Source: Devosia psychrophila
Lineage (GTDB): Bacteria; Pseudomonadota; Alphaproteobacteria; Rhizobiales; Devosiaceae
Direction of reading: 5' to 3'
Assembly: GCF_000971275.1 (NCBI RefSeq)
Contig: NZ_LAPV01000093.1
Span: 124,001 to 188,000, forward strand
Length of the DNA stretch: 64,000 bases
Below, in pieces: positions 4,421 through 23,199 of the stretch (position 1 is the first letter of the stretch; each line of letters begins with the position of its first letter). The notes beneath the pieces are model-generated. The model saw only the letters and a program-made list of their open reading frames with translations. It was not told where the DNA came from and did not search any database. The translations under genes and the position numbers were made by a program.

Positions 4421-4579
4421 GTCGACACCCTCCCCCTTGAGGGGAGGGATCAAGGGAGGGGGTATCTGTTCACGCAGATTGGACTCGTGGAGAGATACCC
4501 CCTCCCGGCTCGATGACGGACCTGGCAAGCGCTAAGTCCTATCTCGCTTTCCCTCCCCTCAACGGGGAGGGTGGTCGAC
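4421..4579. repeat. 159-bp intergenic palindromic repeat with terminal inverted repeats
   Basis: The segment opens with GTCGACACCCTCCCC and closes with GGGGAGGGTGGTCGAC, so its ends are imperfect inverted repeats. Each end can also fold on itself (CTCCCCTTGAGGGGAG-type hairpins). It separates glpD from glpK and may act as an attenuator or RNA-processing site. A partial copy of one end (GTCGACACTCTCCCCCTTG) recurs at 8179-8210, showing that it is a dispersed family. Confidence 0.65.
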
Positions 4580-6404: not shown

Positions 6405-6929
6405 CTACCCGCGCCAGGCGTCAAAGCTGCCGCCGGCTATCATGGCCCAGTAGAGTTTGCCACCGGTGCCGCGTGAGACGGCGAGGCCGAATTCGGTGAA
6501 GCGGTTGCTGAGGAGCGTGCCGCGGTGGCCGGAGGAGTCCATCCAGCCCTGGATCACGGCCGGCAAACTGGTGTAGCCCTTGCCGACGTTTTCGCCGACG
6601 GCGCCGAGATAGCCGGCCGTGGTGACACGCTGGCGCAGGGTAACGCCGAGGTCGTGGCTCATGGTGTTTTTCTGGGCCATCAGGCGGGCTTGCGAGCGAG
6701 CGGCGTCTTCGAGTTGGGAATTGTAGCTCCATTGCGGCGCGCCGTTTGCTTTGCGGACGGCATTGATGGCGCTGAGGATCTCGGCGTCACTCAGGCTTTC
6801 GGGCGTACTGGAAGCCGATTTTGGCAGCACCGGAATGGTGGTGGAGCAGGCCGCGACGGCAGCGGCGGCGCCCAGGATGATGAAGCCGCGGCGGGTGGTG
6901 GAGAGCATCGGGGCATCCATGGGGTTCAT
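6405..6929 (-). CDS. CAP-domain (SCP/YkwD-like) lipoprotein
   Basis: 174 residues. The N-terminus has an Arg pair and hydrophobic stretch (TTRRGFIILGAAAAVAAC) ending in a lipobox-like VAAC, so it is probably a lipoprotein, perhaps Tat-exported. The rest is a CAP/CRISP-SCP-PR1 domain: NAVRKANGAPQW, ARSQARLMAQKNTMSHD with the conserved His, GENVGKGYTS, and GWMDSSGHRGTLLS with the second His. Bacterial YkwD-type CAP proteins are envelope proteins of mostly unknown activity. Its ATG overlaps the stop of the upstream kinase gene (ATGA, 6926-6929), so the two are co-translated. Confidence 0.85.
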   Translation of the reverse strand: MNPMDAPMLSTTRRGFIILGAAAAVAACSTTIPVLPKSASSTPESLSDAEILSAINAVRKANGAPQWSYNSQLEDAARSQARLMAQKNTMSHDLGVTLRQRVTTAGYLGAVGENVGKGYTSLPAVIQGWMDSSGHRGTLLSNRFTEFGLAVSRGTGGKLYWAMIAGGSFDAWRG

Positions 6930-7813
6930 GCCTGGTCGTAGGCGCTGAGAAGATGTGGCAGGCAGGCGAGTTGGGCGGTTATCGCCTTGCCATCGGCGAG
7001 GGTCCAGCAGGCGGACAGTGCAGCATGGGCAGCGGCCCAGCCGAGAATGCGCTTGCGCGAATAGCCGAGGCGCTGGGCCAGGATATCGACGCGGGCGGCG
7101 ATGCGGCGCGGATCAGCGGCAATGTGGAGAGCGTCGACCGGATTGATGAAGACATTGGCGAGCTCATAGGCCGGATCGCCGATCAGTCCCTTGGGATCGA
7201 TGGCCAACCAGCCGCGATCGGAGCTGAGGATATTGTCGTGGTGCAGGTCCCCATGCAGTGGGATCTGGGCGCTGGGACGGTCGAACATCTTGAACGCAAT
7301 GCCGCTGGCGCGGGCGTAGAGATCGCGGGCGGTGTGGGGCCAGACGCGAACATCGGTATCGAACAGGGTCTGGAACCGGGTGCGCAGCGGCTGCAGGTTT
7401 TCCGGCGCGTCAGGGCGGGGCCGATGCAGACTGGCAACGACGGTGGCGATGGCGATGGTGCCTTCGTCATCCTTGCCGGCGCGGACGGGCTGGCCCAGCG
7501 TGCCGCCATCGAGCCATTCGAGGAAAATGGTATCGCCATGCATGTCGAACACCGTGGCGGCGCCCTCGCCGCCGTACCAGTTGAGCAGCGCAGAGCCGCG
7601 TCGCTTTTCTTCGACGGCAAGCTGCTTCAGGATCTTGAGGGCAGCGAAATTGCGGCCATTCTGCTCGACGCGGAAAATCCAGCTCGTCGCCGTTTCGGCC
7701 ACGGGCGTCGATTTGGTCAGGGACCAACGGATCATGGCGCGGCTGAGCGCGGTTTCGACAGGCGACTGATTCATGGCGTGCATTAGAGCAGAAGCCGCGA
7801 TTTGTTTCGACAT
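6926..7813 (-). CDS. Aminoglycoside phosphotransferase family protein, APH(6)/streptomycin-kinase-like
   Basis: Up to 295 residues with an APH kinase fold. The catalytic loop is LHGDLHHDNILSSDRG; the metal-binding block WLAIDPKGLIGDPAYELANVF is the form seen in APH(6) streptomycin 6-kinases. Upstream, ALKILK carries the ATP-binding Lys and FLEWLDGG the hinge. Sequence cannot tell true resistance from a housekeeping small-molecule kinase. Chromosomal setting and operon with a CAP lipoprotein argue against a recently acquired resistance gene. Start uncertain: Met codons at 7813, 7783 and 7774 are possible and none has a strong ribosome site. Confidence 0.8.
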   Translation of the reverse strand: MSKQIAASALMHAMNQSPVETALSRAMIRWSLTKSTPVAETATSWIFRVEQNGRNFAALKILKQLAVEEKRRGSALLNWYGGEGAATVFDMHGDTIFLEWLDGGTLGQPVRAGKDDEGTIAIATVVASLHRPRPDAPENLQPLRTRFQTLFDTDVRVWPHTARDLYARASGIAFKMFDRPSAQIPLHGDLHHDNILSSDRGWLAIDPKGLIGDPAYELANVFINPVDALHIAADPRRIAARVDILAQRLGYSRKRILGWAAAHAALSACWTLADGKAITAQLACLPHLLSAYDQA

Positions 7814-8231: not shown

Positions 8232-9638
8232 CTACTTGATCTTATATGCATCCTTTGCTGCCTGGTAGCTTAGGTGTTTGGCGACATCCCTTGCCGTGGA
8301 TTTCGTGATCCGATTTTCGCCGACCCAGCGGCCGAGGAAACCGCAGACTTCGCGGCGCCAGACGTCGTGGCGAGCCGGGATGGAGAGCAGGGCGCGGGTG
8401 TCATCGTTGAAGCCGGCGAGATTGTAAAAGCCGGCGCTTTCGACGACTTGGTCGAGATAGCGGCGGATGCCCTGCGGGCTATCGTGGAACCACCAGGGCG
8501 GGCCCACCATCAGGCTGGGCCAATAGCCCGCCATGGGTGCCAGTTCACGGGCATAGGTGGTTTCGTCGAGCACGAACATGATGAGGCGCAGGTTGGGCTC
8601 GTTGCCGGCGCGGCCAAGCAGGGCGCGCAGGCCATTGACGTAGTCGGTGGTGCCGGGAATGTCGGCGCCAAGATCGGTGCCACGTTCGGCCATCAGCAGC
8701 GGATCAGTATTGCGGCGGGAGCCGGCATGCATTTGCATGACCATGCCGTCTTCGACCGACAGCAGCGCCATTTCGGTCATCATCTGAGCGCGAAACAGTT
8801 CGGCATCGGCGGCGTCATGCTTGCCGGACAACACCCTGTCGAGCAGGGACTGCCGTTCCGGCGCGGCCAGATCGGCGGTGTTGGCGTTGGGTACGCCATG
8901 GTCGGTGGCGACGGCGCCGAAGCGGCGGAAATATTCGCGGCGATTGCGATGGGCGTTGATCAGCCCGGACCAGGTGGAAATGTTCTCCCCGGTGATCTCG
9001 CCGAACTTTTCGAGGTTTTCGACGATGGCCAGCCGGCCTGGATCGGTCACGTCGTCGGGGCGATAGGTGGTGCGGACGCGACCGATGGTGCCATTGGCCT
9101 CCATCTTCTGGTGATGGACCAGCGGATCGAGGGCAAATTCAGTAGTGGCGATGACTTCCACCCTGGCGCGGTCGAGCAGCGCGTGGGGCAGCAGTCCGGG
9201 CGTCGCTAGGGCCGCGTCGATGGTGTCGTAGATGGCGTCTGCGGTTTCGGCCGAGAGCTCGTCTTTGATGCCGAAGGCCCAATCGAGGGAGTGATCGACC
9301 CAGGTCTTGGACGGGGTGCCGGCAAACAGATGATAGTTAGCGGCGAACAGACGCCAGGCGGCACGTGCCTCGGCTACCGGCTTGCCATCCTTGCGAGGGA
9401 CGCCGAGGTCGTCATAGCCGAGGCCACGGCTGCGCAGCATGCGAAGCACGTAATGATCGGGCGTGAGAAACAGCGCCGCCGGATTGGTAAAGCGCTGGTT
9501 ATCGGCAAACCAGGACGGATCGGTATGCCCATGCGGGCAGATCAGCGGCAGGTCGCGAACTTCGGGATAGAGCTCGCTCGCAACGGATTTGGCGGGCTCG
9601 GAAGCGGGGAACAGGCGGTCTGGGTGCAAGTGGGTCAT
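8232..9638 (-). CDS. uxaC: Glucuronate/galacturonate isomerase
   Basis: 468 residues, standard for UxaC. It converts D-glucuronate to D-fructuronate and D-galacturonate to D-tagaturonate at the start of uronate breakdown. The metal-binding amidohydrolase-like motif LICPHGHTDPSWFA is near the N-terminus. KTWVDHSLDWAFGI, MVMQMHAGSRRNTDP, MVGPPWWFHDSPQGIRRYL and the C-terminal GFNDDTRALLSIPARHDVWRR match the family. ATG at 9638 (MTHLHPDRLFPA) is chosen over 9677 because homologues begin with this segment. No other uronate gene is nearby, so it is an orphan here. The upstream AT-rich stretch near 9690-9720 probably holds the promoter. Confidence 0.93.
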   Translation of the reverse strand: MTHLHPDRLFPASEPAKSVASELYPEVRDLPLICPHGHTDPSWFADNQRFTNPAALFLTPDHYVLRMLRSRGLGYDDLGVPRKDGKPVAEARAAWRLFAANYHLFAGTPSKTWVDHSLDWAFGIKDELSAETADAIYDTIDAALATPGLLPHALLDRARVEVIATTEFALDPLVHHQKMEANGTIGRVRTTYRPDDVTDPGRLAIVENLEKFGEITGENISTWSGLINAHRNRREYFRRFGAVATDHGVPNANTADLAAPERQSLLDRVLSGKHDAADAELFRAQMMTEMALLSVEDGMVMQMHAGSRRNTDPLLMAERGTDLGADIPGTTDYVNGLRALLGRAGNEPNLRLIMFVLDETTYARELAPMAGYWPSLMVGPPWWFHDSPQGIRRYLDQVVESAGFYNLAGFNDDTRALLSIPARHDVWRREVCGFLGRWVGENRITKSTARDVAKHLSYQAAKDAYKIK

Positions 9639-9855
9639 GAAGCGGTTTTGCCATGATCCGAAGCGCAGATCAATCATCTTCCATACAAGATAGCAGCCTA
9701 TGGCATTTTATGTAAATTAACCGCGACTGCAGGTTTGCATTCGTGGCTGAGGCAAGCGGGATTAGCTTGCCCTGACGGGTGAGAACCAGCGCAATGCGGC
9801 TGCCCAAAGGTCTGGCAATGGATGATTTTCGGCCGGCGACCAAGGGATAATCCGA

Positions 9856-10020
9856 ATGGCAATTGTTGACACGGACGAGGATGGCACGATCGAAGCGGTT
9901 CGGCAAAATGCCCGGCTGACAGGCCATGTGCAGAATGCCCAGGTGATGCTTGTGGCCGCAGGAATAGCGGCCTTTAGCATTGTGGCGGTGGCGACAGCCA
10001 TGCTTGCGACGATGCTTTAG
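9856..10020 (+). CDS. Small membrane protein of 54 residues, unknown
   Basis: A short frame with an acidic N-terminus (MAIVDTDEDGTIEAVRQNAR) and a C-terminal hydrophobic segment (VAAGIAAFSIVAVATAML) that could span the membrane once. It fills the gap between uxaC and the response regulator. The ribosome site is weak (AAGGGA 13 bases before ATG). Coding is supported mainly by amphipathic/hydrophobic organisation and codon pattern. Confidence 0.45.
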   Translation: MAIVDTDEDGTIEAVRQNARLTGHVQNAQVMLVAAGIAAFSIVAVATAMLATML

Positions 10021-10071
10021 ACAGGGACGCCTTATAGCTCTAGGGTGCGCCGGGGAGAACACCGGCCGCCC

Positions 10072-10743
10072 ATGCGAATCCTGCTCGTCGAAGACAATGA
10101 AGACCTGGGCGAGGCGATAGAAAAACGCCTGCGCAACGCTGGCCATTCGGTGGAATGGGTGCGCGACGGCAATGACGTTGTATCGGCTGCCGAAGGTGAC
10201 GATTTCGATGCGGTGGCGCTCGACCTGATGCTGCCCAATCGCGATGGTATCGGGCTGATCGCGGAACTGCGCCGGCGCAAGTTCAATGCGCCTATTCTCG
10301 TCATCACCGCCCGTTCCGAAATCGACGACAAGGTAAGCCTGCTCGATCTTGGTGCGGATGATTATCTGGTCAAGCCGTTCGACCTGCGCGAGTTGGAAGC
10401 GCGGCTGCGGGCGCTGATCCGGCGGACGGGCGGGCAGACGTCTAGCTTGCTGGCAGTGGGCAATCTCGAAATGGATCTGGCCGGGCTCAATGCGAGCGTC
10501 GCAGGCAAGTCGCTGGAACTGGGGCGGCGAGAATTCCGGCTGCTGGAAATATTGGTGACCAATGTGGGCAAGGTGGTGCCAAAGGAGCGGCTGATGAACC
10601 AGCTGTTCAACTTCGACGAGGCGGTGTCGGTGAACGCACTAGAGCTTCACATCTCGCGGCTACGCAAGAAGCTTGAAGCGGCGAGCGTGGAAATCGGCAC
10701 CGTGCGCGGGGTTGGCTATGTGGTGCGGGTGCCGCATGGGTAG
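10072..10743 (+). CDS. OmpR/PhoB-family response regulator (TctD-like)
   Basis: 223 residues: receiver (about 1-115) and winged-helix DNA-binding domain (about 125-220). The receiver has the acidic pair in LLVEDNED, the phospho-accepting Asp in VALDLMLPNRDG, Thr in VITARS and Lys in DYLVKPFDLREL. The output domain has LELGRREFRLLEILVTN and the C-terminal RLRKKLE...TVRGVGYVV wing. ATG at 10072 starts at MRILLVED. The cognate kinase lies about 150 bases downstream across a repeat. The nearby tctCBA operon suggests it controls uptake of a carboxylate, as TctD does in other bacteria; this is inference. Confidence 0.92.
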   Translation: MRILLVEDNEDLGEAIEKRLRNAGHSVEWVRDGNDVVSAAEGDDFDAVALDLMLPNRDGIGLIAELRRRKFNAPILVITARSEIDDKVSLLDLGADDYLVKPFDLRELEARLRALIRRTGGQTSSLLAVGNLEMDLAGLNASVAGKSLELGRREFRLLEILVTNVGKVVPKERLMNQLFNFDEAVSVNALELHISRLRKKLEAASVEIGTVRGVGYVVRVPHG

Positions 10744-10770
10744 GATCGATAGTGCCGCATACACCGCGCG

Positions 10771-10875
10771 GCACCTCCCCCTCGACGGGGGAGGCTGGGT
10801 GGGTGTGCGGAAGCTTCTATTGATATTGTGCGCAGCCGTCCCCCTCCTCAGCCCTCCCAGCAAGGGGGAGGGTGC
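10771..10875. repeat. Intergenic palindromic repeat between regulator and kinase
   Basis: Begins with the stem CCTCCCCCTCGACGGGGGAGG and ends near GCAAGGGGGAGGGTGCTGATCGAG. Same C-rich palindromic style as the elements at 4421 and 6228. It lies inside the two-component operon and could uncouple expression of regulator and kinase. It also supplies a spurious Shine-Dalgarno-like AGGGGGAGG beside the GTG at 10872. Confidence 0.5.
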
Positions 10876-10898
10876 TGATCGAGTTCTTGGCGGGTGCC

Positions 10899-13361
10899 GT
10901 GGCTAACTCGTTCTCCATCAAGCGGCGGATTCTGGCGCTGGCGCTGGCGTTGTTGCTGGCGGCGGCGGTGGTGCTGATCATCTTTATTCGCGACTATTCG
11001 GAGCGAGCGGCGGACCGGGCGTTTGACCGGCTTCTGGCGGCGTCGGCGCTGACCATTGCCGGCGCGGTGCAGGTGGAAGACGACACGGTGATCGTCGAGC
11101 TGCCTTTCGCTTCGTTCGGAATGTTTTCGGGGCGGGACCGGGTGTTCTATGCGGTGGAAAGTCCCGGCGGCGGGGCGGTGACGGGCTATGAGGACCTGTC
11201 GCGCGTGTTGCCGGAAATGACCTCGGCGGGACCGATCTTCCGGGATGCGACCTATCGCGGGGAGTTGGTGCGGGTGGCCAGCGTGGGGCGGCTGACCTCA
11301 TCGGGAAGCGATACCGACTGGGTAACCATTCATGTGGCGGAGACCCAGAGTGAGCGCGAGGCACTGGCGTGGGAAATTCTTAGTAATGCCATCGTGCCGG
11401 TGGTGGCGCTGACGCTGCTGGCGATTGCGCTGGTGTGGTTCGGCATCGGGCGGACGTTTGCGCCACTGGTCCAGCTTGAGCAGGAATTGCGTGGACGGGC
11501 GCCCGATGACCTGTCGCCGCTGGATGTGCCGGTGCCTATGGAGGTGAGCCATCTGGTGTCGGCGTTGAACGGGTTCATGGCGCGGCTGGGCAGTGCGGTG
11601 GAGCGGATGACCGGCCTGGTTGCCGAGGCAGCACATGAGGTGCGCACGCCGCTAGCGTCGTTGCGGGCGCAGGCGGAAGTGGCGATGGACGAGCAGGACC
11701 CAGAGGCGCTGCGGCGGCGGGTGGGGCGCATTCATCAAGGCGCGGCGCAGGCGAGCCAATTGGTGACGCAATTGCTGATGGAAGCGACGATCTCGCACCG
11801 GCTGGAAAACCAGGAGACGGATACTTCGGCGCTTGGGGCGGTGGTGGAGGATGTGCGACAGCGGCTGGACCCGGACCAGGCCGGGCGGCTGATGGTGGAG
11901 CTGCCGGAGGCGGTGAGCGAGGCGCAAATTCGCGGTGATCGGGTGGCGCTGCGGGAGATGGTGCGGAACGTGGTGGATAATGCGCTGGTGTATTCGGAAG
12001 GGCCGGTGGAGATCGGCGGTGTGGTTACCGACGGCGTAGTGACCATGGCGGTAAGCGACCGGGGACCGGGTATTGTCGAGGCTGAAAAGCCGGTGGTGCT
12101 GGAGCGGTTCAAGCGTGGAGCGACCAGTAGCGCCAAGATCGGTTCGGGGCTCGGCCTGTCCATCGTCAAGCGTGTAGCCGAGGCGCATCGCGGGGCGCTG
12201 CGATTGAAGGATAGGGACGGCGGCGGGCTGGTGGTGGAGATCGATCTGCCGCTGCTGGGACGGACCAACAAGGTGGAACAGCTGCGGCGAGCGCTGGGTT
12301 CGCTGTCGGCGCTGGTGCTGTGCCTGTTGCTGGTCGGGTCGCAGGACACCCAGGCGGCGTCGACCAGCTATCCGGCGCCGAATGGCAGCAGCGATACGGT
12401 GCTGACTATTGTGGGGGTGACCGACACGCCGCTGTTTGCGCAGTTCATTGCAGGCTTCCAGACGGTGCGGCCGGATGTGACGGTGATCTACGAGGAGACG
12501 GATTCGCGGCCGCTGTATGACCGGTATCTCGCCGGCGACATGGTGCCGAGGCCCGACCTGCTGGTGAGTTCGGCATCGGATTTGCAGATCAAACTGGCCA
12601 ATGACGGATATGCCATGGCGTATGACAGCCCGTTTCTCGGCGGCCTGCCAGAGTGGGCGCATTGGCGCAACGAGGTGTTTGGCTTCACCTTCGAGCCAGC
12701 GGTGATCATTTATAATCCGGATCGGATCTCAGCCGCAGAAGTGCCGCGCACGCATCTGACGCTGGCAGAAATGCTGGAGACGCAAACCGAGCGGTTTCGC
12801 GGTACGATTGCTACCTATGACATTGCGCTATCGGGCGTGGGCTATCTGCTGGCGTCGCAGGACCAGGTGATTTCATCGAACTTCTGGCGGCTGGCGGCGG
12901 CGTTCGGGCGGGTCAATGCGCAGTTCTCGGGGTCGAGCCCGGCCATTCTCAACGGCGTAGCCGACGGATCGCTGGCGCTTGGATATAATGTGCTGGGTTC
13001 CTATGCCTTTGCGCGCAAGGCGGCGGGGGCCAATATCGAAATCGTGGTGCCGGACGACTACGTGCTGGTGCTGACGCGCTCGATGCTGATCCCGCGCGAT
13101 GCGCCCTACCCTGAGTTGGGCAAGGCGTTCGTCGATTTTGCGCTGTCGCCGCCGGGACAGGCGATTGCGGCGGGACCCACGGCGCTGGGGTCGGTGGTGA
13201 ATGGGACCGTCGGGGAGTGGACCAGCGAGGCGATTGCGGCACGAGGCCGCGGCGTTTTGCAGCCAATAGGGCTGGGACCGGCATTGATGGTGTCGCTGGA
13301 CCAGCAGCGGCGGAAGCGGTTTCTGGATAGCTGGGGCGAGATCGTTTCGCCAAAGCCTTGA
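10899..13361 (+). CDS. Sensor histidine kinase fused to a C-terminal periplasmic solute-binding domain
   Basis: About 820 residues. N-terminal TM helix (RRILALALALLL...), periplasmic sensor region, second TM helix (IVPVVALTLLAIALVWFGI), HAMP-like linker, HisKA with phospho-His in AAHEVRTPLASLRAQ, then HATPase with N box (VRNVVDNALVYSEG), G1 (VSDRGPGI), F box and G2 (GSGLGLSIVKR). This is TctE-like. After the kinase a hydrophobic segment (ALGSLSALVLCLLLVGS) ending TQAAS resembles a signal peptide. It is followed by about 340 residues of a family-1 (Fe3+/AfuA-like) solute-binding protein: TIVGVTDTPLFAQF, RPDLLVSSASDLQ, VIIYNPDRIS. The topology (kinase inside, binding domain outside) is self-consistent. 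An in-frame GTG at 12273 might start the binding protein alone. GTG at 10899 is preferred because the one at 10872 lies in a repeat. Confidence 0.85.
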   Translation: MANSFSIKRRILALALALLLAAAVVLIIFIRDYSERAADRAFDRLLAASALTIAGAVQVEDDTVIVELPFASFGMFSGRDRVFYAVESPGGGAVTGYEDLSRVLPEMTSAGPIFRDATYRGELVRVASVGRLTSSGSDTDWVTIHVAETQSEREALAWEILSNAIVPVVALTLLAIALVWFGIGRTFAPLVQLEQELRGRAPDDLSPLDVPVPMEVSHLVSALNGFMARLGSAVERMTGLVAEAAHEVRTPLASLRAQAEVAMDEQDPEALRRRVGRIHQGAAQASQLVTQLLMEATISHRLENQETDTSALGAVVEDVRQRLDPDQAGRLMVELPEAVSEAQIRGDRVALREMVRNVVDNALVYSEGPVEIGGVVTDGVVTMAVSDRGPGIVEAEKPVVLERFKRGATSSAKIGSGLGLSIVKRVAEAHRGALRLKDRDGGGLVVEIDLPLLGRTNKVEQLRRALGSLSALVLCLLLVGSQDTQAASTSYPAPNGSSDTVLTIVGVTDTPLFAQFIAGFQTVRPDVTVIYEETDSRPLYDRYLAGDMVPRPDLLVSSASDLQIKLANDGYAMAYDSPFLGGLPEWAHWRNEVFGFTFEPAVIIYNPDRISAAEVPRTHLTLAEMLETQTERFRGTIATYDIALSGVGYLLASQDQVISSNFWRLAAAFGRVNAQFSGSSPAILNGVADGSLALGYNVLGSYAFARKAAGANIEIVVPDDYVLVLTRSMLIPRDAPYPELGKAFVDFALSPPGQAIAAGPTALGSVVNGTVGEWTSEAIAARGRGVLQPIGLGPALMVSLDQQRRKRFLDSWGEIVSPKP

Positions 13362-13375
13362 GGAAAGTCCTTTTG

Positions 13376-13488
13376 GGGGTACTCCCACCTCGCCTTCCCT
13401 TGATGAAGAGGAGGAATTCTATCGAGTATTGGGCACCATCCCCCATTCACCGGTCAGGTTCCTTCCTCTTTTCAGGGAGACTGCGTGA
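13376..13488. repeat. Second copy of the 6228 miniature repeat
   Basis: From GGGGGTACTCCCACCTCGCC to about 13488 the sequence aligns base by base with 6228-6342, sharing the GATGA.G.GGAGGAATTC.ATCGAGT..TGGGCAC and CACCGG.CAGGTTCCT segments. The terminal inverted repeats are more decayed here. It follows the kinase/binding-protein gene. The rest of 13489-13720 shows no supportable gene. Confidence 0.6.
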
Positions 13489-13720
13489 GTATTCTTTCTT
13501 TGCTTTCGCACTACGCAGCCATGCGATTAATGCATGGATTCTACGTTCGTCGCATGATTGTCACCTATTTTCGCCATGGAGCGCACTTACCACCCGCTCA
13601 ATTGCACCCACCGCATAGCTGTGGTGCCCTTTTACCCCTACCGGAACCGACGGTATGAGCCCATTTGTCTAGTCATGAAAGCGACCCGGCAATTCGGTTG
13701 GGTCTTTAGAGGAACTGGCC

Positions 13721-13891
13721 ATGAGCACCCCCCGCAAATCTTTTTTTGCAACCCTGAACACCTTCGTTGAAGTCTTCGGCAGCGCTGCTGCCGTGTCCAA
13801 CGCGGTCGAAGGCGGGCGCGCTCCAAAGGCCAAGCACCTCAAGGCCCTCGGTATCGATGCAGTCGCTTTCCGTTCGATCGGCCGGGTTTAA
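13721..13891 (+). CDS. Small basic protein of 56 residues, unknown
   Basis: Reads MSTPRKSFFATLNTFVEVFG..., then an Ala/Val-rich helix, and ends HLKALGIDAVAFRSIGRV. A good ribosome site (AGAGGAAC) lies just upstream and an intrinsic terminator follows at 13952-13991, so it looks like a free-standing short transcription unit. The LKALGID.VAFRSIGR end looks conserved in style, similar to short rhizobial proteins of the DUF1127 type, but assignment is not secure. Confidence 0.6.
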   Translation: MSTPRKSFFATLNTFVEVFGSAAAVSNAVEGGRAPKAKHLKALGIDAVAFRSIGRV

Positions 13892-13951
13892 CCCGACCCG
13901 GCGTCGCGCTTTCCTCCCTGTGGGCGTGGCGCCGATCAGCCGATTGACGTG

Positions 13952-13991
13952 AAAAAGCCCGGATGCCCTGAAAGGGGCGTCCGGGCTTTTT
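13952..13991. terminator. Bidirectional intrinsic terminator
   Basis: AAAAAGCCCGGATGCCCTG and GGGGCGTCCGGGCTTTTT form a long GC-rich stem with an A-run before and a T-run after. It can end the small gene at 13721 on the plus strand and the tctCBA operon on the minus strand. Confidence 0.85.
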
Positions 13992-14005
13992 GCTTTTCCA
14001 GGATA

Positions 14006-15553
14006 TCAGTCTTCGTCGCTCGCCATCTGGGACAGGACGGCGCCCTTGCCGCGAAGGCGGAAGTAGAGCGGGATCAGGACGGCGGCGGCGGCCACGATGT
14101 AAAGCGTGATGGCGATGGGCGTGTGGACCAGAACCATCGGATCGCCCTGGCTGATGGCCAGTGCCCGACGCAATTGCTGTTCGGCCAGCGGGCCCAGGAT
14201 CAGGCCAATGACCACGGGGGCGATCGGGTAACCGAAGCGGCGGAGGCCATAGCCCAGGATGCCGAAAGCCAGCAAGATCAGCAGTTCGAACGAGAACGGG
14301 ATGGGCCCCAGCCGGCCGGACATGGCGCCATTGGCGCCCAGAGTTCCCAGCGTGGCAAAGGTCAGGATGCCAGCATAGAGCCAGGGTCGAGGCACGGTCA
14401 GCAGCTTTACCCAGAGGCCGATCAGCGGCAGGTTGAGCACCAGCAGCATGAAATTGGCGACCAAGAGGCTAGCGATCAGCGACCAGACCAGCGGCGCATT
14501 GTTGGCGAACAACAGCGGCCCGGGCTGCAGGCCGAACTGCTGGAAGCCGGCCAGCATGATGGCGGCGGTGGCGGATGTGGGAAGACCCAGCGTCAGCAAG
14601 GGAACCAGCGTGCCGGCAGCGGAGGCATTGTTGGCGGCTTCGGGGCCGGCGACGCCCTCGATGGCGCCGTGACCGAATTCCTCAGGATGTTTCGCGAGGC
14701 GGCGCTCGGCTGCATAGGAAAAGAAAGTGCCGATTTCGGCGCCACCGGCGGGCATGGCGCCAATTGGGAAGCCGATCAGCGTGCCACGCAGCCAAGGGCC
14801 CCAGGAGCGTTTCCAGTCTTCCAGGGTCATCCACACCGACCCTTTGACGGCCAAGACCTCTTCCTTCATCTGGGTGCGGGACGAGGCGATCGACAGTGTT
14901 TCGCCGATGGCGAACAGCGCGACGGCCAGCGTGGTCACCTCGATGCCGTCGAGCAGATCGGGGATGCCGAAAACCAGACGCGCCTGGCCGGTTTGCAGGT
15001 CGATGCCGATGACGCCAAGGCCGAGGCCGATGAACAAGGCGGTGACGCCGCGCAGCGGGCTATCGCCGAACGCCGCCGAAACGGTGATGAAGGCAAGCAC
15101 CATCAGCGCGAAATAGTCGGCTGGGCCGAAGGATAGCGCGACCTTGACGACCCAGGGGGCGAGAAATGCCAGAGCGATGGTGGCGATCAGGCCGGCGACG
15201 AAGGAGCCGATGGCGGCCGTGGCCAGTGCGGGACCGCCCCTACCCTTGCGGGCCATCTTATTGCCTTCCAGCGCGGTAACGATGGAGGCGCTTTCCCCCG
15301 GCGTATTGAGCAGGATGGAGGTGGTCGAGCCGCCATACATGCCGCCATAGTAGATGCCGGCGAACATGATCAGCGAGCCGGTGGGATCGAGCCGATAGGT
15401 GACGGGCAGCAATAGCGCCACGGTCAGCGCCGGTCCGATGCCGGGCAGCACGCCCACGGCGGTGCCAAGGGTGACGCCCAGCAGCGCATAGAGCAGGTTC
15501 TGCCACTGCAGCGCCGCAACCAGGCCATTGGCCAAAAGACCGAAGGTATCCAT
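14006..15553 (-). CDS. tctA: Tripartite tricarboxylate transporter, large membrane subunit
   Basis: 515 residues with about a dozen membrane segments, matching the TctA length. It opens with [20 protein letters not shown] and contains the conserved [35 protein letters not shown] and [20 protein letters not shown]-type segments typical of TctA. It forms the transport channel of the TTT secondary transporter, working with TctB and the periplasmic TctC to import tri- or dicarboxylates. ATG at 15553 is chosen because the upstream in-frame extension overlaps tctB and is Ser/Cys-rich. Last gene of the tctC-tctB-tctA operon. Confidence 0.93.
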
Positions 15554-15569
15554 TACACGCGTCTTTCGA

Positions 15570-16055
15570 TCAGGGAATGAGCCGCTCGAGGGGGCCCATG
15601 GGCAGGGCGAGCTGCAGGCCGCGCGAGAAGATGAACCAGATGACAAAGGCCAGCACGAAGCCGATGGGAATGGTCTGCCACAGCGGGCCACGACCGAAGG
15701 CCTTGGCCGTGAAGGCGAAGAGAATAGCCGTGCCGATGGAGAAACCCGCCCAGCCGAGCAGCAGCATCTGCGCTACCAGCCCCCCGATGATCCACAGCAT
15801 TGGACCGTAATTGTCTTTTTCACGCGCCGGGAACTGGCCACGCCAGGCCGAGAGCGCAGTGCCGATCGACAACAGGACCAGGCCGCCGGCGATCACATAG
15901 GGGAATACCTGCGGGCCAACCTTAGCCTGGATCGGCGGCACCCGCATCATCGAGGTCTGCCAGATGATGACAGCGGCAATCACCGCCAGCACCAGCGCTA
16001 TAAAAAGCGCCGCCCCATCGGGGCGACGCGAGAGATTGGGTTCGCCTAGGCTCAT
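15570..16055 (-). CDS. tctB: Tripartite tricarboxylate transporter, small membrane subunit
   Basis: 161 residues with four hydrophobic segments, the usual TctB design; the family is poorly conserved in sequence. It starts [20 protein letters not shown] and contains [20 protein letters not shown], reminiscent of the TctB G..FFP...g..l motif. Its start overlaps the tctC stop by four bases (ATGA) and tctA begins 16 bases after its end, so all three are one operon. Confidence 0.88.
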
Positions 16056-16996
16056 TGCACCAAGCCGATTTCTTTCAGAATGGCGGAGGTCGCCTCGGTA
16101 TCGGCCGCGAGCTGCGCGTCGAAATCGGTGCCGCCGAGATACATGTCCTGCCAGCCCTTGGTTGCCAGCGTCTGCTTCCAGGTCGCCGAGCTCACCAGCT
16201 TTTCGATATCGGCGCCAATAGCAGTCTTCTGCTCGTCGGTGATGCCGGGTGCTGCCGCAACCATGCGCCAGTTCTCGACGACGAGATCAACACCCGCTTC
16301 GCCCAGGGTCGGAATCTCCGAACCTTCGAGGCGGGCCGAGCCGGTCGTTGCCAGAGCGCGCAGGTCGCCCGACTTGATCTGGGCATCGAATTCACCGAGG
16401 CCTGAAATGCCGACGGTCACCTGACCACCAAGCACGGCTGCAAGCGCTTCGCCGCCGCCGGAGAAAGCGATATAGTTGACGGTGGTTGGATCGACGCCGA
16501 CGGTCTTGGCAAACAGGCCAGCCGCGATGTGATCGACGCCGCCAGCCGAACCGCCAGCCCAGGAAACCGAGCCGGGATCAGCCTTCAGCTTGGCAATCAG
16601 ATCATCGACAGTCTTGAGTTCGGAAGCGGCCGGCACGACGATGACGTCAGATTCGCCGGTGAGACGGGCGATCGGGGTCACGTTGGCCAGCGAAACGGGC
16701 GAAGCATTGGTCAGCACGGCGCCGACCATCACATAGCCACCGACGATCAGCGCATTGGGATTGGCATTGAACTGGTTGACGAACTGGGCGAGGCCAATAG
16801 TGCCACCGGCGCCAGGAACGTTGGTAACCTGTACATTGCCCGAAATGCCTTCAGCCTGGAGGGCTTCCTGCATCGAGCGGGCAGTCTGGTCCCAACCGCC
16901 GCCGGGGGCAGCGGGGGCCATGATGGTGTAGTCGGCAGCAAAAGCGGGAACAGCAATAGCGCTCGAAATCAGCGCAGCCAAAAGCAGCTTGTTCAT
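16052..16996 (-). CDS. tctC: Tripartite tricarboxylate transporter, periplasmic solute-binding protein
   Basis: 314 residues with a Sec signal peptide ([20 protein letters not shown], cleaved after AFA). The mature protein has the Bug/TctC hallmarks: [53 protein letters not shown] and [17 protein letters not shown]. It captures a carboxylate in the periplasm for TctAB. ATG at 16996 is preceded by GGGAGGA. First gene of the operon; the regulator/kinase pair at 10.1-13.4 kb is the likely controller. Confidence 0.94.
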
Positions 16997-17165
16997 AAGT
17001 CCTCCCATGTCATATTCGGAACGTCTCTGCGTTCGTGACACGGACAATAGGCTTCGTCCCTGTCACCGTCCTGTCAGCAAGGCAGATGGGCCGCGTAATC
17101 GGGTTCGACTGAATAATGCCAGCCAGATTGCTCCTGCAGGCCGCCAATTGCAACGGGGCAGACAA

Positions 17166-19028
17166 TCAGTCCATGCGACGGAGCTGGTCGCCATTGGCGT
17201 CGGGCGCGGGGTTGGGGGCAATGCGCTGGGAAAACATCGATAGCAGATGCGTGGTGTCGGCAAACGATCCCGGACGCGCGAACAGATAGCCCTGCCCCAT
17301 GCTGCAACCGAGTTCAGAGAGGATGCTGGCTTGCGACGCCGATTCTATGCCTTCGGCCACCAGCTTGATGTCGAGCTTCCTGGCAATATCGATGATGGAG
17401 CCAACCACGACGTCGCTGGCGCGATCGGCGCCGAGGCGATCGATGAAGGACTTGTCGATTTTGATGACATCGACGGGGAAGCTCAGCAGATGGGTCAATG
17501 AGGCAAAGCCGGTGCCGAAGTCATCGAGCGCGACAAGTAGGCCGCGCTGGCGCAAGTCACTGACCGCCTTGGGCACCATCTGGTCGCTGCCGGCCATGTA
17601 GACCGACTCGTTGACCTCGAGGATGAGGTGCTTGAGCGGAACGTTGGTCCTTTCAAACGTCTCGACGATTCGCGATTCGAGATCGCCGCGCTGGAAATCG
17701 CCGGTAGTGACATTGATGCCGACATGCTGGAAGGGAATGCTCAGGTCGAGCCACTGTCGGATGTCCGCCGCGATCTGCGTCAGCATCTGGCCTGTCAACT
17801 GCCAGGCAATGCGCGGATCGGCCAGCGCGGCGTGGAATTCGCCGGCTGCGGCGATGCGGCCATCGGGCATGCGCATCCGCGCCAGGGCTTCGAGGCCGAC
17901 GATCTCTGCAGTGTCGAGTCGGACGATGGGCTGGTAGTGCACCAGCATCCGCCTGTCGGCGAGGGCCTGATCGACATTACGCACCATCGTGGCGCGCTCC
18001 ATCATTGCCGTGCGCATGCCGGGCGTGAAGCGGACATAGCCGCCGCGACGGATTTCCTTGGCATGATAGAGCGCAAAATCGGCGTTCTGGCTGAGAGAGG
18101 CTTCGTCGTCGCCATCAGGACCGAAAAGTGCGCCACCAATGGTGATGTGGGGGTCGATGGTCTGGTCGTCCATCTGGATTAGACCGCTCACCGCATTGAG
18201 CATGCGGTTCGCTGCGTCCCGCAGGGCGTGGTCGGAATGGCAATCGGACACCAGGATGGCAAACTCGTCGCCGCCGAGGCGGCAGGCGGTCAGCGAGGGG
18301 TGGCAGTTGGCCAATCGCTCGGCCACCGTGCGGATCAGCATGTCGCCAAAGGCGTGGCCGACGGTGTCGTTGACCAGCTTGAGATGATCAATATCGACCA
18401 ACATCAGGCCAAAGGGCACCTGCAGGCGGATGGCGCGACCCAGCAATTCGTTGAAGCGACCGCGATTGGGCAGGCCGGTCAGCGCATCATAATAGGCCAG
18501 GCGATGACTACGCTCGCGGACGATCTCGTTGTCGATGGCGATGGAGCAGAGATGCACGCAGGTCTCGACGATGCTGCGCTCGAGATCATCGGGCCCACGG
18601 GCGGTGCGGTAGTAGAAGGCGAACGTCGCCACGACCTGATTGGCGCTGTTGCGGATGGGGCTGGACCAGCAGGCGCGGAGGCCAAGCGGTTCGGCCAGAC
18701 TGCGGAAACCGTCCCATAGTGGGTCAGTGGCAATATCGGTGACCATGACCGCCTCGTTACGAAACGCCGCGGTGCCGCAGGAGCCAACCTTGTCGCCGAT
18801 GGCCACGCCATCGATGGCGCTGGAAAAGGACAGCGGGAGAGATGGCGCTGCAAGCGGACGCAGGCGGCTCTCCGCATCGACCATCAAAATGGAGCAGATC
18901 GCGTCGGAAGCCAGCTCCTGCGCACGGCGGCACAGCAGATCGGCAACCGACACCAGCGGCTCGCCACGAGCGACCGCTTCCAAAACTTCCGTCTGCAGTC
19001 GCAGCAGCAGAGCGCTATCGGTGACCAT
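17166..19028 (-). CDS. GAF-GGDEF-EAL cyclic-di-GMP signalling protein
   Basis: 620 residues with no membrane segment, so cytoplasmic. GAF domain (about 20-165; GDKVGSCGTAAFRNEAVMVTDI). GGDEF domain (about 185-345) with an intact signature in CRLGGDEFAILV. EAL domain (about 365-610) with VGLEALARMRMP, LILEVNESVYM, LVALDDFGTGFASLTHL, VIKIDKSFI and LVAEGIES, so the phosphodiesterase residues look intact. No RxxD inhibitory site precedes GGDEF. Probably a GAF-controlled c-di-GMP phosphodiesterase that may also be a cyclase. ATG at 19028 is preferred to 19061. Single-gene unit. Confidence 0.92.
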   Translation of the reverse strand: MVTDSALLLRLQTEVLEAVARGEPLVSVADLLCRRAQELASDAICSILMVDAESRLRPLAAPSLPLSFSSAIDGVAIGDKVGSCGTAAFRNEAVMVTDIATDPLWDGFRSLAEPLGLRACWSSPIRNSANQVVATFAFYYRTARGPDDLERSIVETCVHLCSIAIDNEIVRERSHRLAYYDALTGLPNRGRFNELLGRAIRLQVPFGLMLVDIDHLKLVNDTVGHAFGDMLIRTVAERLANCHPSLTACRLGGDEFAILVSDCHSDHALRDAANRMLNAVSGLIQMDDQTIDPHITIGGALFGPDGDDEASLSQNADFALYHAKEIRRGGYVRFTPGMRTAMMERATMVRNVDQALADRRMLVHYQPIVRLDTAEIVGLEALARMRMPDGRIAAAGEFHAALADPRIAWQLTGQMLTQIAADIRQWLDLSIPFQHVGINVTTGDFQRGDLESRIVETFERTNVPLKHLILEVNESVYMAGSDQMVPKAVSDLRQRGLLVALDDFGTGFASLTHLLSFPVDVIKIDKSFIDRLGADRASDVVVGSIIDIARKLDIKLVAEGIESASQASILSELGCSMGQGYLFARPGSFADTTHLLSMFSQRIAPNPAPDANGDQLRRMD

Positions 19029-19953: not shown

Positions 19954-20556
19954 TTAGCGCAGTTGGCCACTCGACAGGGTATGGCGTTGTGGCGCTATGC
20001 GCGCCAGCAGGGGCGCGTCGTGGCTGATGGCGAGAATGCCGAGGCCGACCGCGCAGCGGGTCAGCAGGAAGCGCCAGATTTCGGCCTGGGTGATGGGATC
20101 GAGCATGGCGGTGATCTCGTCGGCGATGAGGTAGCGGGTCTGGGGTGAGAGGGCCCGGAGTAGCGTGACCCGTTGCAGCTCGCCGCCCGAGATTTCGTGC
20201 GGGTAGCGGTCATACCAGGCGCGGGAGACGCCGAGGGCTTTGCGGGTGGCTTCGTCGGGCTGCCAGTCTTCTTCGACGATGCGGCCGATGCGCCAGCGGG
20301 GGTCCACCGCAAAAATAGATGATTGGTGGAGATATTGGACGGAGGACCGGCCGCTGGTGGTGGTGGCGCCGTCGATGGCTACGACGCCCCTGCCCGGCTG
20401 GAGATAGCCGGCCATGATGCGGCCGAGCGTGGATTTTCCGCTGCCGGAGCGCCCGGCAAGGCCGATGATCTGGCTCGGCGCCAGTGAGAGGGAGACACCG
20501 GACAGAACTGGCGCTTGCTGGCGATAGGCAAAGTGGATGTCGCGGGCTTCAAGCAT
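19954..20556 (-). CDS. nikE: Nickel ABC transporter ATP-binding protein NikE
   Basis: 200 residues, compact for an ABC ATPase of the Dpp/Opp/Nik group. Walker A is GLAGRSGSGKSTLGRI, signature motif EISGGELQRVTLLRAL and Walker B RYLIADEITAMLD, followed by the His switch (ISHD). It starts at MLEARDIHFAYRQQ and overlaps the end of nikD by eight bases. Nickel specificity is inferred from the operon with an adjacent nikR and NikR operator. It lacks the C-terminal extension of DppF/OppF, as is normal for NikE. Confidence 0.88.
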   Translation of the reverse strand: MLEARDIHFAYRQQAPVLSGVSLSLAPSQIIGLAGRSGSGKSTLGRIMAGYLQPGRGVVAIDGATTTSGRSSVQYLHQSSIFAVDPRWRIGRIVEEDWQPDEATRKALGVSRAWYDRYPHEISGGELQRVTLLRALSPQTRYLIADEITAMLDPITQAEIWRFLLTRCAVGLGILAISHDAPLLARIAPQRHTLSSGQLR

Positions 20557-21349
20557 GGGCGGGATCCGCGCTGAAGTGGTTTTCCGGCATGGAGTGCCAG
20601 AGGGCGCGGGCGTAAGCGGACTGCAGGGCAGCGCCGTTTCCGGAGAAGGCTGATGCCGGCTCAACATCGACTAGCTTGCCGTGCTGCAGGATGGCGACGC
20701 GATTGGCGAAGGGCAGAGCCTGGGCGAGATCGTGGGTGATCAGGAGGACGCCGTTGCCTGCATCGGCAAGCTGGCGGAGGTGCGTGAGGACCGCGATTGC
20801 ATTGCTGGGATCGAGGCCGCTGGTTGGCTCGTCGGCTACGATCAGGTCGGGCTGGCCGATAGTGGCGATGGCCAGCATCAGGCGACGGGCCATGCCGCCG
20901 GACAGCTGGTGGGGAAAGGCGTGGGCGGTGGAGGCATCAAGGCCGAAGCGGGCTAGTGTTTGGTTCAGCGCAGCCTTGCCGACCTTGCGACCGCTGCGCC
21001 GCGCGGCCCAGGCGAGTTGCTTGGCACAGCGGGTCAGGGGATCGAGGTGGCTGGCGGATTGTGGGACAAGGCCGATGCGGCGGCCGCGATGGGCCGGCCA
21101 GTTGCTGCGCTCGAGTTTTACTCCATCGAGCAGGAGTTGGCCCGCAGTGATGGCGTTGGGTGGCAGAATGTCGAAGAGGGCATGGGCCAGCAGGCTCTTT
21201 CCGGCGCCGGATGCGCCAACAATTGCTAGAACCTCGCCGCGGTCGAGACCAAAGCTCAGGCCTTGCAGCGCCAGTACAATGCGCTGGTGCAGCAGGCCAT
21301 CATAGCGCCGGAAACCAACCGAGAAGTCTTGCACCGAAAGCAGCATCAT
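20549..21349 (-). CDS. nikD: Nickel ABC transporter ATP-binding protein NikD
   Basis: 266 residues. Walker A is IVGASGAGKSLLAHA, the Q loop lies in GLVPQSASHLDPL, the signature is QLSGGMARRLMLAI, Walker B is LIVADEPTSGLDP and the switch is ITHDL. Start ATG at 21349 sits in an ATGA overlap with nikC. Partner of NikE in powering the NikB-NikC channel. Confidence 0.9.
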   Translation of the reverse strand: MMLLSVQDFSVGFRRYDGLLHQRIVLALQGLSFGLDRGEVLAIVGASGAGKSLLAHALFDILPPNAITAGQLLLDGVKLERSNWPAHRGRRIGLVPQSASHLDPLTRCAKQLAWAARRSGRKVGKAALNQTLARFGLDASTAHAFPHQLSGGMARRLMLAIATIGQPDLIVADEPTSGLDPSNAIAVLTHLRQLADAGNGVLLITHDLAQALPFANRVAILQHGKLVDVEPASAFSGNGAALQSAYARALWHSMPENHFSADPAHA

Positions 21350-22209
21350 ACCTGCTCCTGTCGCGGGTCGGCCAGTAGGCGAAGACCATTGCCGATGGCG
21401 TCGAAGCACAGCACGAGTGTCAACAGGCAGAGGCCGGGGAACAGGCCCAGCCACCATTTTCCGGCCACCAGGTAGCGCATGGAATCCGACAGCAGCACGC
21501 CGATGGCGGGCTTTGAGGGTTCGAGGCCAAAGCCGATGAAAGTGAGGCCTGCCTCATGCAGGATGGCGTGGGGAAACAGCAGGACGAGGCCGACCAGCAG
21601 TTGTGGCCAGAGATGGGGCAGGAAGTGATGGCGGCCGATATAAGCCCATGACTTGCCCATGCGGCGCGAGGCGATGATGAAATCGGCATGGCGGAGCTGG
21701 AGGGTCTCGGCGCGCAGGATGCGCGTCAGGCGCGGCCAGTGGGTGACGGCGACTGCAATGATGACCGCTGTGGTGCCGCCGCCCAGGGCGAAGGAAATCA
21801 GGATCAGCAGGACCAGATGCGGCAGGCCCATGGCGGCATCGACCAGGAACGCTACTAGCGCGTCAGCCCAGCGGCCGCAGGTGATGGCGAAGATGGCGAG
21901 CAGCGTGGCGATGACCACGGATATCGAGGCGGCGACGAGCCCGACCCAGAGACTGACATTAAGGCCGTGAATGGTGCGGGCCATCATGTCGTGGCCGAGC
22001 TGGTCGGTGCCGAACCAATGCGCGAGGGATGGCGGCGCGAGGCGCGTGGTGAAGTCAGCGTCAATACCGAAGCCGCCGAGCAGGATGGAGGCCAGAACCA
22101 CGCCGGCAATAATCAGCGCGCCGACCAACGCTGAGAGTATGGTCAGCGTTCTATTGTTGGGCCAGCGGTTGCGCGATGCTGCCGCCGGAATATCGATGGC
22201 CTGGCTCAT
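21346..22209 (-). CDS. nikC: Nickel ABC transporter permease NikC
   Basis: 287 residues, about six TM segments, DppC/NikC type. The N-terminal helix region (TLTILSALVGALIIAGVVLA) is followed by HWFGTDQLGHDMMARTIHG, the family block before the core permease. The EAA-like loop for ATPase contact is near ASRRMGKSWAYIGRHHFLP. It overlaps nikB by four bases. Pairs with NikB. Confidence 0.91.
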   Translation of the reverse strand: MSQAIDIPAAASRNRWPNNRTLTILSALVGALIIAGVVLASILLGGFGIDADFTTRLAPPSLAHWFGTDQLGHDMMARTIHGLNVSLWVGLVAASISVVIATLLAIFAITCGRWADALVAFLVDAAMGLPHLVLLILISFALGGGTTAVIIAVAVTHWPRLTRILRAETLQLRHADFIIASRRMGKSWAYIGRHHFLPHLWPQLLVGLVLLFPHAILHEAGLTFIGFGLEPSKPAIGVLLSDSMRYLVAGKWWLGLFPGLCLLTLVLCFDAIGNGLRLLADPRQEQV

Positions 22210-23192
22210 CGGGCCGGCTCCCCGTGCATGCGCGGATCGACAACGCGGTAGAGCAGATCGGCGATGGAATTGCCGATGAAGACGAAGACGGTGAGGAACA
22301 GCGCCAGCGCCAGCAGCAGCGGTACGTCGCCGCGCGTGCCGGCCTCGACCGTGGCGCTGCCTAGGCCGGGATAGGCGAAGACCTGTTCGGCCAGAACCGA
22401 GCCGCCGAACAGCTCGCCGAGCGAGGCGAAAAGGACGGTGATGGCCGGCAGTGCCGCATTGCGGGCGCCGTGAAGGAGCGCGATTTCCAGCTGGGACGCG
22501 CCCTGCGCCCTGGCGTAGAGCGCGTAGTCGGACTGCATGATTTCGACCAGCTTGGCGCGGGTGTGCAAGGCGATCTGGGCGACGCCGAGCACGGTGAGGG
22601 CGATCAGCGGCAGGATCATGTGGTGAAGGAACTGCAGCGTCGTCACGTTGCCCGGCAGCATGCCGATTGGGGCGGCGCAGCAGACAGGGGTCCAGCGCAG
22701 GCTGACCGAGAACACCATCAGCAGCAGGATGGCGATCCAGAATGTGGGCGCGGAGGCCAGCACGTAGGAATAGAGCCGCACCGAGCGATCAAGCCAGGTG
22801 CCGGGAAAGGCACCTGCCACCACACCGAGGGCAAAGCCGAATATGCCGGAGAGCAACCAGGCCAGTCCCATCAGCGGCAGGGAGGTCTTGAAGCGCGCGG
22901 CCAGCACATCGGCGACGGGCGCGTTGTAGGTCATGGAATACCCGAGGTCGCCGCCGAGGAGGTTGCCCAACCATTTGCCGAACTGAACCTGTGGCGGCAG
23001 GTCGAGACCCCATTTTTCGGCGATCAGTTCGCGTTGTTCTGGACCGACCCGGGCGATATCGGCGCCAAGATAGGCATTGACCGGATCGACCGGCGATAGT
23101 TTCGCCAGCGCGAAAGCGACCACGGCTACCGCGACCAGCACCAGGGCCAGCCGCACTACGCTCACTGCGATCAATGTGGTCCAGTTGGTCAT
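22206..23192 (-). CDS. nikB: Nickel ABC transporter permease NikB
   Basis: 328 residues, DppB/NikB type, about six TM helices. The N-terminal helix is followed by LAKLSPVDPVNAYLGAD, the typical DppB segment, and the core contains the loop RAQGASQLEIALLHGARNA that contacts the ATPase. The C-terminal part includes GELFGGSVLAEQVFAYPGLG, a highly conserved DppB/NikB block. Starts 7 bases after the nikA stop. Confidence 0.92.
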   Translation of the reverse strand: MTNWTTLIAVSVVRLALVLVAVAVVAFALAKLSPVDPVNAYLGADIARVGPEQRELIAEKWGLDLPPQVQFGKWLGNLLGGDLGYSMTYNAPVADVLAARFKTSLPLMGLAWLLSGIFGFALGVVAGAFPGTWLDRSVRLYSYVLASAPTFWIAILLLMVFSVSLRWTPVCCAAPIGMLPGNVTTLQFLHHMILPLIALTVLGVAQIALHTRAKLVEIMQSDYALYARAQGASQLEIALLHGARNAALPAITVLFASLGELFGGSVLAEQVFAYPGLGSATVEAGTRGDVPLLLALALFLTVFVFIGNSIADLLYRVVDPRMHGEPAR

Positions 23193-23199
23193 GGCGTGG

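Follow-up and report, generated by a model that had tools for sequence, protein, structure and literature searches.

A TctE-like sensor kinase and an MctA-related solute-binding protein share one reading frame in Devosia psychrophila, with a predicted signal peptidase I site between them

In bacterial kinase systems of the TorT/TorS type, a free periplasmic solute-binding protein (SBP) is the ligand receptor of the sensor. The partners in the TorT/TorS, LuxP/LuxQ and XylFII/LytS pairs are encoded by separate genes. Of the characterized SBP–kinase pairs, 10 of 11 are encoded adjacent to or very near one another (PMC11113362; here and below, published statements are taken from parts of the papers cited). 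The gene described here, by contrast, places both partners in one frame. It lies in a 64,000-nucleotide stretch of DNA from the soil bacterium Devosia psychrophila (GCF_000971275.1, contig NZ_LAPV01000093.1, positions 124,001 to 188,000), hereafter the window, in which a TctE-like kinase and, behind it, a binding protein, both complete, are encoded by a single stop-free frame on the forward strand (10899-13361). Relatives in which the two parts are split share the side-by-side layout of the known pairs. The product is probably a precursor that signal peptidase I separates into the kinase and an MctA-related receptor free in the periplasm, a pair that would control the neighboring TctCBA transporter.

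In Bordetella, citrate-loaded BctC acts through the TctE-type kinase BctE on bctCBA (PMC5812351, PMC9602780). BctDE and TctDE resemble the present locus in that a TctD/TctE-like pair lies beside tctCBA, with a periplasmic binding protein as the probable co-sensor (PMC5812351). BctC is the transporter's own receptor and a separate protein of the TctC family; the second receptor in the window, unlike BctC, is MctA-like and occupies the kinase's frame, and tctC is present as well. In BvgS and EvgS, the SBP domains precede the kinase and form its periplasmic sensor, whereas the SBP of the Devosia product comes after the catalytic domain, with a predicted cleavage site ahead of it. The BvgS/EvgS sensors are Venus-flytrap domains of the SBP fold within the same polypeptide as the kinase (PMC8534201). 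In staphylococcal LtaS, the signal peptidase SpsB cuts the outer domain from the membrane part (PMC11898559). As predicted for the Devosia product, a membrane part is followed by an exported domain with the cut between them; LtaS, however, is one enzyme rather than two partners. Bradyrhizobium FbcH is a cytochrome b/c1 precursor from which a signal-peptidase cut yields two subunits of a respiratory complex, whereas a receptor pair is predicted here. The combination of kinase and SBP domains has probably been counted in print already, because a two-component survey assigns an SBP_bac_1 input domain to classical kinases of three of four Azospirillum strains (PMC4618731, Table 3), and one of these three, Azospirillum lipoferum 4B, has a fused gene. 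The parts of that survey used here are silent on the order, topology and processing of these kinases. SBP-driven kinases are known, as are internal cuts by signal peptidase; in the open-access literature we found neither the combination nor a description of a signal-peptidase-cut kinase–SBP precursor, its topology or its processing.

The fused frame ends at a TGA (13359-13361). Its start is either GTG 10899 (820 amino acids) or GTG 10872 (829 amino acids); the former is preferred because several relatives have an ATG zero to five codons before the matching stretch. In the 829-residue numbering, Pfam places 2CSK_N at residues 28-169 (E 6.6e-34), HisKA at 247-307 and HATPase_c at 355-461, followed by SBP_bac_8, 11, 1 and 6 at about 519-775, with an E value of 9.7e-12 for SBP_bac_8. 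All three domains of a TctE-like 2CSK_N sensor histidine kinase are present. The 2CSK_N region (10953-11378) includes the first transmembrane helix and the periplasmic sensor, and the catalytic core of HisKA and HATPase_c spans 11610-12254. Among 33 aligned fused proteins (820-residue numbering, used from here on), H246, N357, N361, D387, G389, G391, F404, G415, G417 and G419 are invariant, and the phospho-acceptor and ATP-site residues are intact. The first-pass annotation had described one polypeptide with a complete TctE-like kinase, a hydrophobic segment ending in TQA/AS (the slash marks the predicted cut here and below) and a full binding domain, a description that the open frame and the Pfam matches bear out. 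A whole-chain AlphaFold model from 33 close sequences is of low confidence (mean predicted local distance difference test score, pLDDT, 59; predicted template modeling score 0.32) and was used for its helix at residues 457-478 alone, not for domain interfaces or fold searches.

The fusion is the usual state in the genus. The whole frame is free of stops in 53 of 75 Devosia genomes, including that of D. psychrophila (an assembly of 239 contigs); the others are 69-88% identical to it. The fused query is matched in 63 of the 75 at E ≤ 1e-40. A contig end cuts the fused frame in G056 and ends the match in G066, the frames of G013 and G052 are interrupted, though not at the junction, and G058 and G065 have two genes instead of the fusion. 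A sequencing or assembly error, or a pseudogene, was ruled out on the open frame shared by the 53 genomes; conservation of the catalytic residues and of most ligand-site positions speaks against it too, and despite the two broken frames, neither of which breaks at the junction, the probability of such an error is practically negligible. The refutation proposed at the outset, a junction stop and two separate genes in every relative, fails on the same count, and an ordinary two-gene arrangement was likewise rejected as the main interpretation for the genus. Pelagibacterium (L057, 73% identity) provides the nearest example given outside Devosia. More distant fusions occur in G110, G111, G112, G119 and G122, as second copies in G024 and G060, elsewhere in the order (G179, G252, G253, G281, G327, G380, G498) and the class (G756, G835), and on plasmids of Peteryoungia, Azospirillum, Palleronia and Salipiger. 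Matches at E ≤ 1e-80, some of them to the kinase only, were found in at least 30 of 397 genomes of the order and at least 3 of 385 of the class, D. psychrophila included. In the phylum sample, at least 43 of 398 genomes match at 1e-60, and among the matches listed D. psychrophila alone spans both halves. The two-gene form is general in the Pseudomonadota, and the fusion was seen, among the samples searched, in Alphaproteobacteria alone. Loci L083, L084, L088 and L089, including the second copies in G024 and G060, form a divergent second fusion type whose SBP resembles that of the window weakly and whose flanks show no tctA; its ligand is possibly a different one.

The segment that joins the two halves has the layout of a signal peptide. 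A positively charged cytoplasmic linker (residues 453-464, 12255-12290), which would serve as the n-region, is followed by a hydrophobic core (465-480, 12291-12338) and a c-region, S-Q-D-T-Q-A (12339-12356), with a predicted signal peptidase I cut after A486 (12354-12356). The mature periplasmic protein would then comprise residues 487-820 (12357-13358). Across 57 orthologous junctions, position -1 is Ala in every one, position -2 is any of 13 residues, and position -3 is Ala in 43, Val in 5, Thr in 5, Pro in 2, Ser in 1 and Ile in 1. These frames were picked for having both halves in one open frame, and the lack of a stop in the 57 is therefore not evidence. In the alignment of 33 proteins, many from the same loci, A486 is the sole invariant column between P451 and Y491. 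Y491 lies 5 residues beyond A486 in 56 of the 57 junctions, and the linker before the site varies freely in length among relatives. A positive n-region, a core of about 10-16 residues and small residues at -3 and -1 are all present (apart from the two junctions with Pro at -3); the core run without charged or polar residues has a median length of 15 in relatives (range 9-21).

Hydropathy, expressed as the best 19-residue Kyte–Doolittle mean, places the junction between guessed signal peptides and transmembrane helices. Values at the junction range from 1.33 to 2.32 (median 1.86, 56 distinct sequences) and, in distant fusions, from 1.48 to 2.38 (median 1.77, n = 16). The kinase's own helices are stronger: 2.88-3.40 for the first (TM1, median 3.17) and 2.30-2.66 for the second (TM2, median 2.52; 53 sequences each). 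Signal peptides of split SBPs, which are rough guesses, range from -0.25 to 2.16 (median 1.40, n = 28). The window's junction helix, at 1.76, is below both kinase medians. Further information comes from G058 and G065 (loci L091 and L092), in which the order is regulator–SBP–kinase and the SBP gene thus lies upstream of the kinase. Because they nest within the fused Devosia clade in a kinase tree (Shimodaira–Hasegawa approximate likelihood ratio test values of 87, 94 and 96 on the nested branches), they have most likely re-split the gene. Their SBPs have signal peptides ending in VMA/AST or ATA/ATT, and their kinases end without a hydrophobic tail.

These data suggest that the junction is more likely to be a cleavable signal peptide than to anchor the chain in the membrane. 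Cleavage is favored because the -1 Ala is invariant, the helix is weaker than the kinase's transmembrane helices, and the two apparently re-split Devosia genomes keep the same kind of site. Several points weigh against this interpretation, to begin with the fact that signal peptidase cleavage is predicted from sequence. The motif [AVSTGIL]xA directly follows the hydrophobic core in 22 of 22 distant fusions, where the site was first picked by eye, but an AxA-like motif is also found in 65% of 16-residue windows drawn at random from these proteins and follows their strongest transmembrane helix in 16 of 22 cases, versus 22 of 22 at the junction. By itself, the motif is weak evidence of cleavage. 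In addition, the junction helices exceed the guessed signal peptides in hydropathy, and the top value among the orthologous junctions, 2.32, just touches the TM2 range, which begins at 2.30, so that slow or partial cleavage is possible. Two split relatives with lipobox-like SBPs suggest that a membrane-bound receptor is tolerated somewhere. The first-pass annotation had offered either a tethered receptor or release at the signal peptide ending in TQAAS. In the former, the uncut chain would cross the membrane three times and keep the binding domain anchored beside the sensor domain; the single chain kept in 53 of 75 genomes, the lipobox-like SBPs, and junction helices that in some relatives are hydrophobic enough to remain embedded (maximum 2.32 for Devosia, 2.38 for the distant fusions) all suit such a tether. 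An invariant Ala amid a variable segment is not expected of an uncut anchor, however, and the two-gene relatives and the two apparently re-split Devosia, with their separate SBP genes, do not need a tether. Of the two, release at TQAAS is favored, and a tethered receptor is unlikely.

Cleavage could also be partial or regulated in the manner of LtaS and SpsB, with an uncut sensing form and a cut form whose ratio sets signaling. The LtaS cut has been proposed as regulatory (PMC11898559), and the intermediate hydropathy of the junction fits such a scheme; the sole disfavored c-region residue seen, Pro at -3 in 2 of 57 junctions, argues against it, and we regard it as quite unlikely. It is similarly doubtful that, under an incomplete or controlled cut, the cut form coexists with a kinase whose catalytic domain is held at the membrane on one side by TM2 and on the other by the junction helix. 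If this were true, processing at the junction would belong to the signal itself and give the two-component receptor a third regulated state. Two products might instead arise from an internal translation start, with the fusion being incidental. Some ATG, GTG or TTG codon is present in the linker of 55 of the 57 junctions, and the SBP gene of split relatives begins about here. No in-frame start position is conserved across the 57, however; two lack such a codon anywhere from the end of the kinase to the hydrophobic core, and a start codon with a Shine-Dalgarno-like 4-mer occurs in 18. The window's three GTG candidates have no such 4-mer, and among them GTG 12273 (12273-12275), earlier proposed to release free binding protein, is not conserved. 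An internal start was rejected as the main interpretation on these grounds and is very unlikely.

Cleavage by signal peptidase I, our preferred interpretation, leads to the following proposed mechanism. The 2CSK_N kinase would insert N-terminally with two transmembrane helices, and the internal Sec signal peptide after the ATPase domain would carry the C-terminal domain into the periplasm. Signal peptidase I would cut after A486, yielding kinases and free, soluble, MctA-related (metal-citrate) receptors in equal numbers; the kinase may retain the signal-peptide helix, which would add a third membrane segment. A ligand-loaded receptor would then bind the 2CSK_N sensor of its kinase, which would phosphorylate the TctD-like regulator and thereby control the adjacent tctCBA uptake operon.

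The receptor half was examined by sequence and structure comparison. In phmmer, Agrobacterium 3c9h matches at E 1.9e-68, and the 7f6x series of MctA matches at 3e-42 to 1e-40. A model of the binding domain from 25 sequences has a pLDDT of 79, with residues 157-167 and the last 32 poorly modeled. It aligns with MctA at Z scores of 34.5-35.2 (root-mean-square deviation 2.6-2.7 over 314-315 residues, 32% identity) and with 3c9h at 34.8, followed by a ferric-binding protein at 27.9 and the sugar-phosphate binders (AfuA) at 27.1; Foldseek ranks 3c9h first and MctA next. By these comparisons, MctA and 3c9h are the nearest relatives of the domain, and ferric-binding proteins are more distant ones. 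MctA itself (7f6e-7f6u), so similar in fold and sequence, is titled a metal-citrate-binding protein and assigned in its title to an ABC transporter. Six ligand-site positions of MctA were mapped by eye on the alignment, with numbering set from the names of mutant structures. D28, S79, S164 and Y221 are identical here (D509, S558, S645 and Y702) and stay invariant when Halomonas and Chitinimonas are added. At the remaining two positions, S26 corresponds to V507, and T199 to S680, which varies once those two are added; these differences count against the preferred interpretation. Structures of the MctA mutants S79A, S164A, T199A, Y221A and Y221F are titled apo, and those of S26A and D28A are titled bound. 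A search for papers on 3C9H, 7F6E, 7F6N and 7F6O found no relevant one (two unrelated papers matched). Gene neighbors of some relatives are also informative: citrate lyase citCDEF and malic enzyme in Azospirillum thermophilum, a 2-hydroxycarboxylate transporter in Bradyrhizobium, and aconitase and isocitrate/isopropylmalate dehydrogenase in Bosea. The likeness to MctA, together with the citrate-related neighbors, points to a citrate-type ligand, and our guess is citrate, metal-citrate or another tricarboxylate.

The history of the fusion is reflected in the split relatives. Among 25 same-strand pairs of split kinase and SBP genes, in that order, 23 have candidate start codons, which are not mapped starts, overlapping the kinase end: in 18, an in-frame start overlaps the kinase stop by 4 nucleotides (ATGA or GTGA), and in 5 the overlap is longer. 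In the other two (L143 and L145), a single in-frame TGA separates the halves and is closely followed by a start codon. Excluded from the 25 were L075/L098 (one broken fused gene, counted twice), L132 (a kinase fragment), the reversed-order L076, L091 and L092 (L076 being the same place as L092), the divergent L077 and L099, and annotated plasmid pairs of Bosea, in which kinase and SBP genes overlap by 4 nucleotides, and Bradyrhizobium, in which a gap of 59 nucleotides separates them. Since split pairs overlap or sit one TGA apart, fusion needs only a small frame change or the loss of one stop, which supports the earlier suggestion that a stop was lost between two genes. The fusion would thus replace the usual tight coupling of two genes through an ATGA overlap. 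On the kinase trees (68 and 72 rows; quick trees without bootstrap), the fused or split state requires seven changes, and at least five of them are forced by well-supported branches. The long branches L077, L078, L079 and L099 were removed for the second tree, and L151 and L155, in whose flanking DNA no SBP was found, were scored as neither fused nor split. In L143 (G371) and L145 (G289), with kinase and SBP in the same frame, the SBPs start with lipobox-like LAGC or LAAC, and the receptor there may be a lipoprotein.

Upstream of the fused gene, 10072-10743 (forward strand) encodes an OmpR-family, TctD-like response regulator with Response_reg and Trans_reg_C domains, the presumed partner of the kinase. 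Its best NCBIfam model is TctD (NF012023), at 197 bits, under the 337-bit cutoff for a TctD equivalog. Among 36 named fused loci, 33 have a relative of this regulator upstream, and contig ends truncate the remaining three. As first noted, the fused gene adjoins a TctCBA operon, which is on the opposite strand and convergent (14006 to ~16996): tctA, the large membrane subunit (14006-15553; Pfam TctA E 4.8e-151; predicted start, open frame from 15691), tctB, the small membrane subunit (15570-16055; TctB E 1e-19), and tctC, the transporter's own solute receptor (16052-16996; TctC E 1.9e-26; predicted start, open frame from 17047). A tctA is nearby in 25 of the 36 named fused loci, 8 of 16 distant fusions and, by annotation, 5 of 6 plasmid loci. 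In several distant relatives, for example L093, L094, L131, L135 and L143-L147, the regulator–kinase–SBP set and tctC are transcribed divergently, and TctC is only 28-37% identical to that of the window, which suggests that cassette and transporter have long been associated. From this adjacency, the kinase/regulator pair may control tctCBA. Two observations tell against such control: 11 of the 36 named loci lack tctA in their flanks (four of them, L045, L056, L061 and L065, are short or end soon), and tctA was not found in the flanks of 8 of the 16 distant fusions. A further point against the preferred interpretation is that adjacent SBP and kinase genes are not always functionally linked (PMC11113362). 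Devosia L060, L062, L063, L064 and L066, and likewise L046 and L055, have the fused gene with no tctCBA found in the flanks; the regulated operon in these loci may differ or lie elsewhere. A complete-looking peptide-type ATP-binding cassette (ABC) transporter (19954-24462, reverse strand) consists of two ABC ATPases, two permeases and an SBP_bac_5 receptor. Pfam scans of window genes (parts of 1808-27069) gave no other ABC transporter, and because this one has its own SBP_bac_5, there is no obvious nearby partner with which the fused SBP would serve transport.

Contact between an SBP and a kinase is hard to establish, and gene adjacency sometimes misleads (PMC11113362). A lineage with both in one chain names partners that are produced together and provides naturally paired sequences for the study of SBP-driven 2CSK_N kinases. 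A precursor cut into sensor and receptor would be an unusual way to produce a receptor pair and, if cleavage is true, a bacterial two-component receptor made as a polyprotein. Annotation would be corrected as well, because in all six fused plasmid genes examined the kinase is hidden under the name "extracellular solute-binding protein".

The remaining observations concern the surrounding DNA. In the six plasmid relatives, the regulator and the fused gene overlap, unlike in the window, where a gap separates them. That gap contains, at 10852-10872, a GC-rich palindrome-like sequence, CCCTCCCAGCAAGGGGGAGGG, which together with variants (2-3 mismatches) also occurs at 4428-4448 and 4551-4571; with 3 matches versus 0.01 expected, it looks like a dispersed intergenic repeat. 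A repeat scan of 9600-17200 returned just short GC-rich matches at the junction, and a promoter scan of 9900-17300 returned no sigma-70-like site. An inverted repeat at 13952-13991 (17-nucleotide arms, 94%, A/T-run edges) lies in the convergent gap before tctA; it is a possible terminator that a consensus scan did not list. Finally, the gene at 6926-7813 (reverse strand) matches APH_6_hur (E 2.8e-58) and lies beside a CAP-domain gene and uxaC in many Devosia loci. It putatively encodes an environmental relative of streptomycin phosphotransferases.

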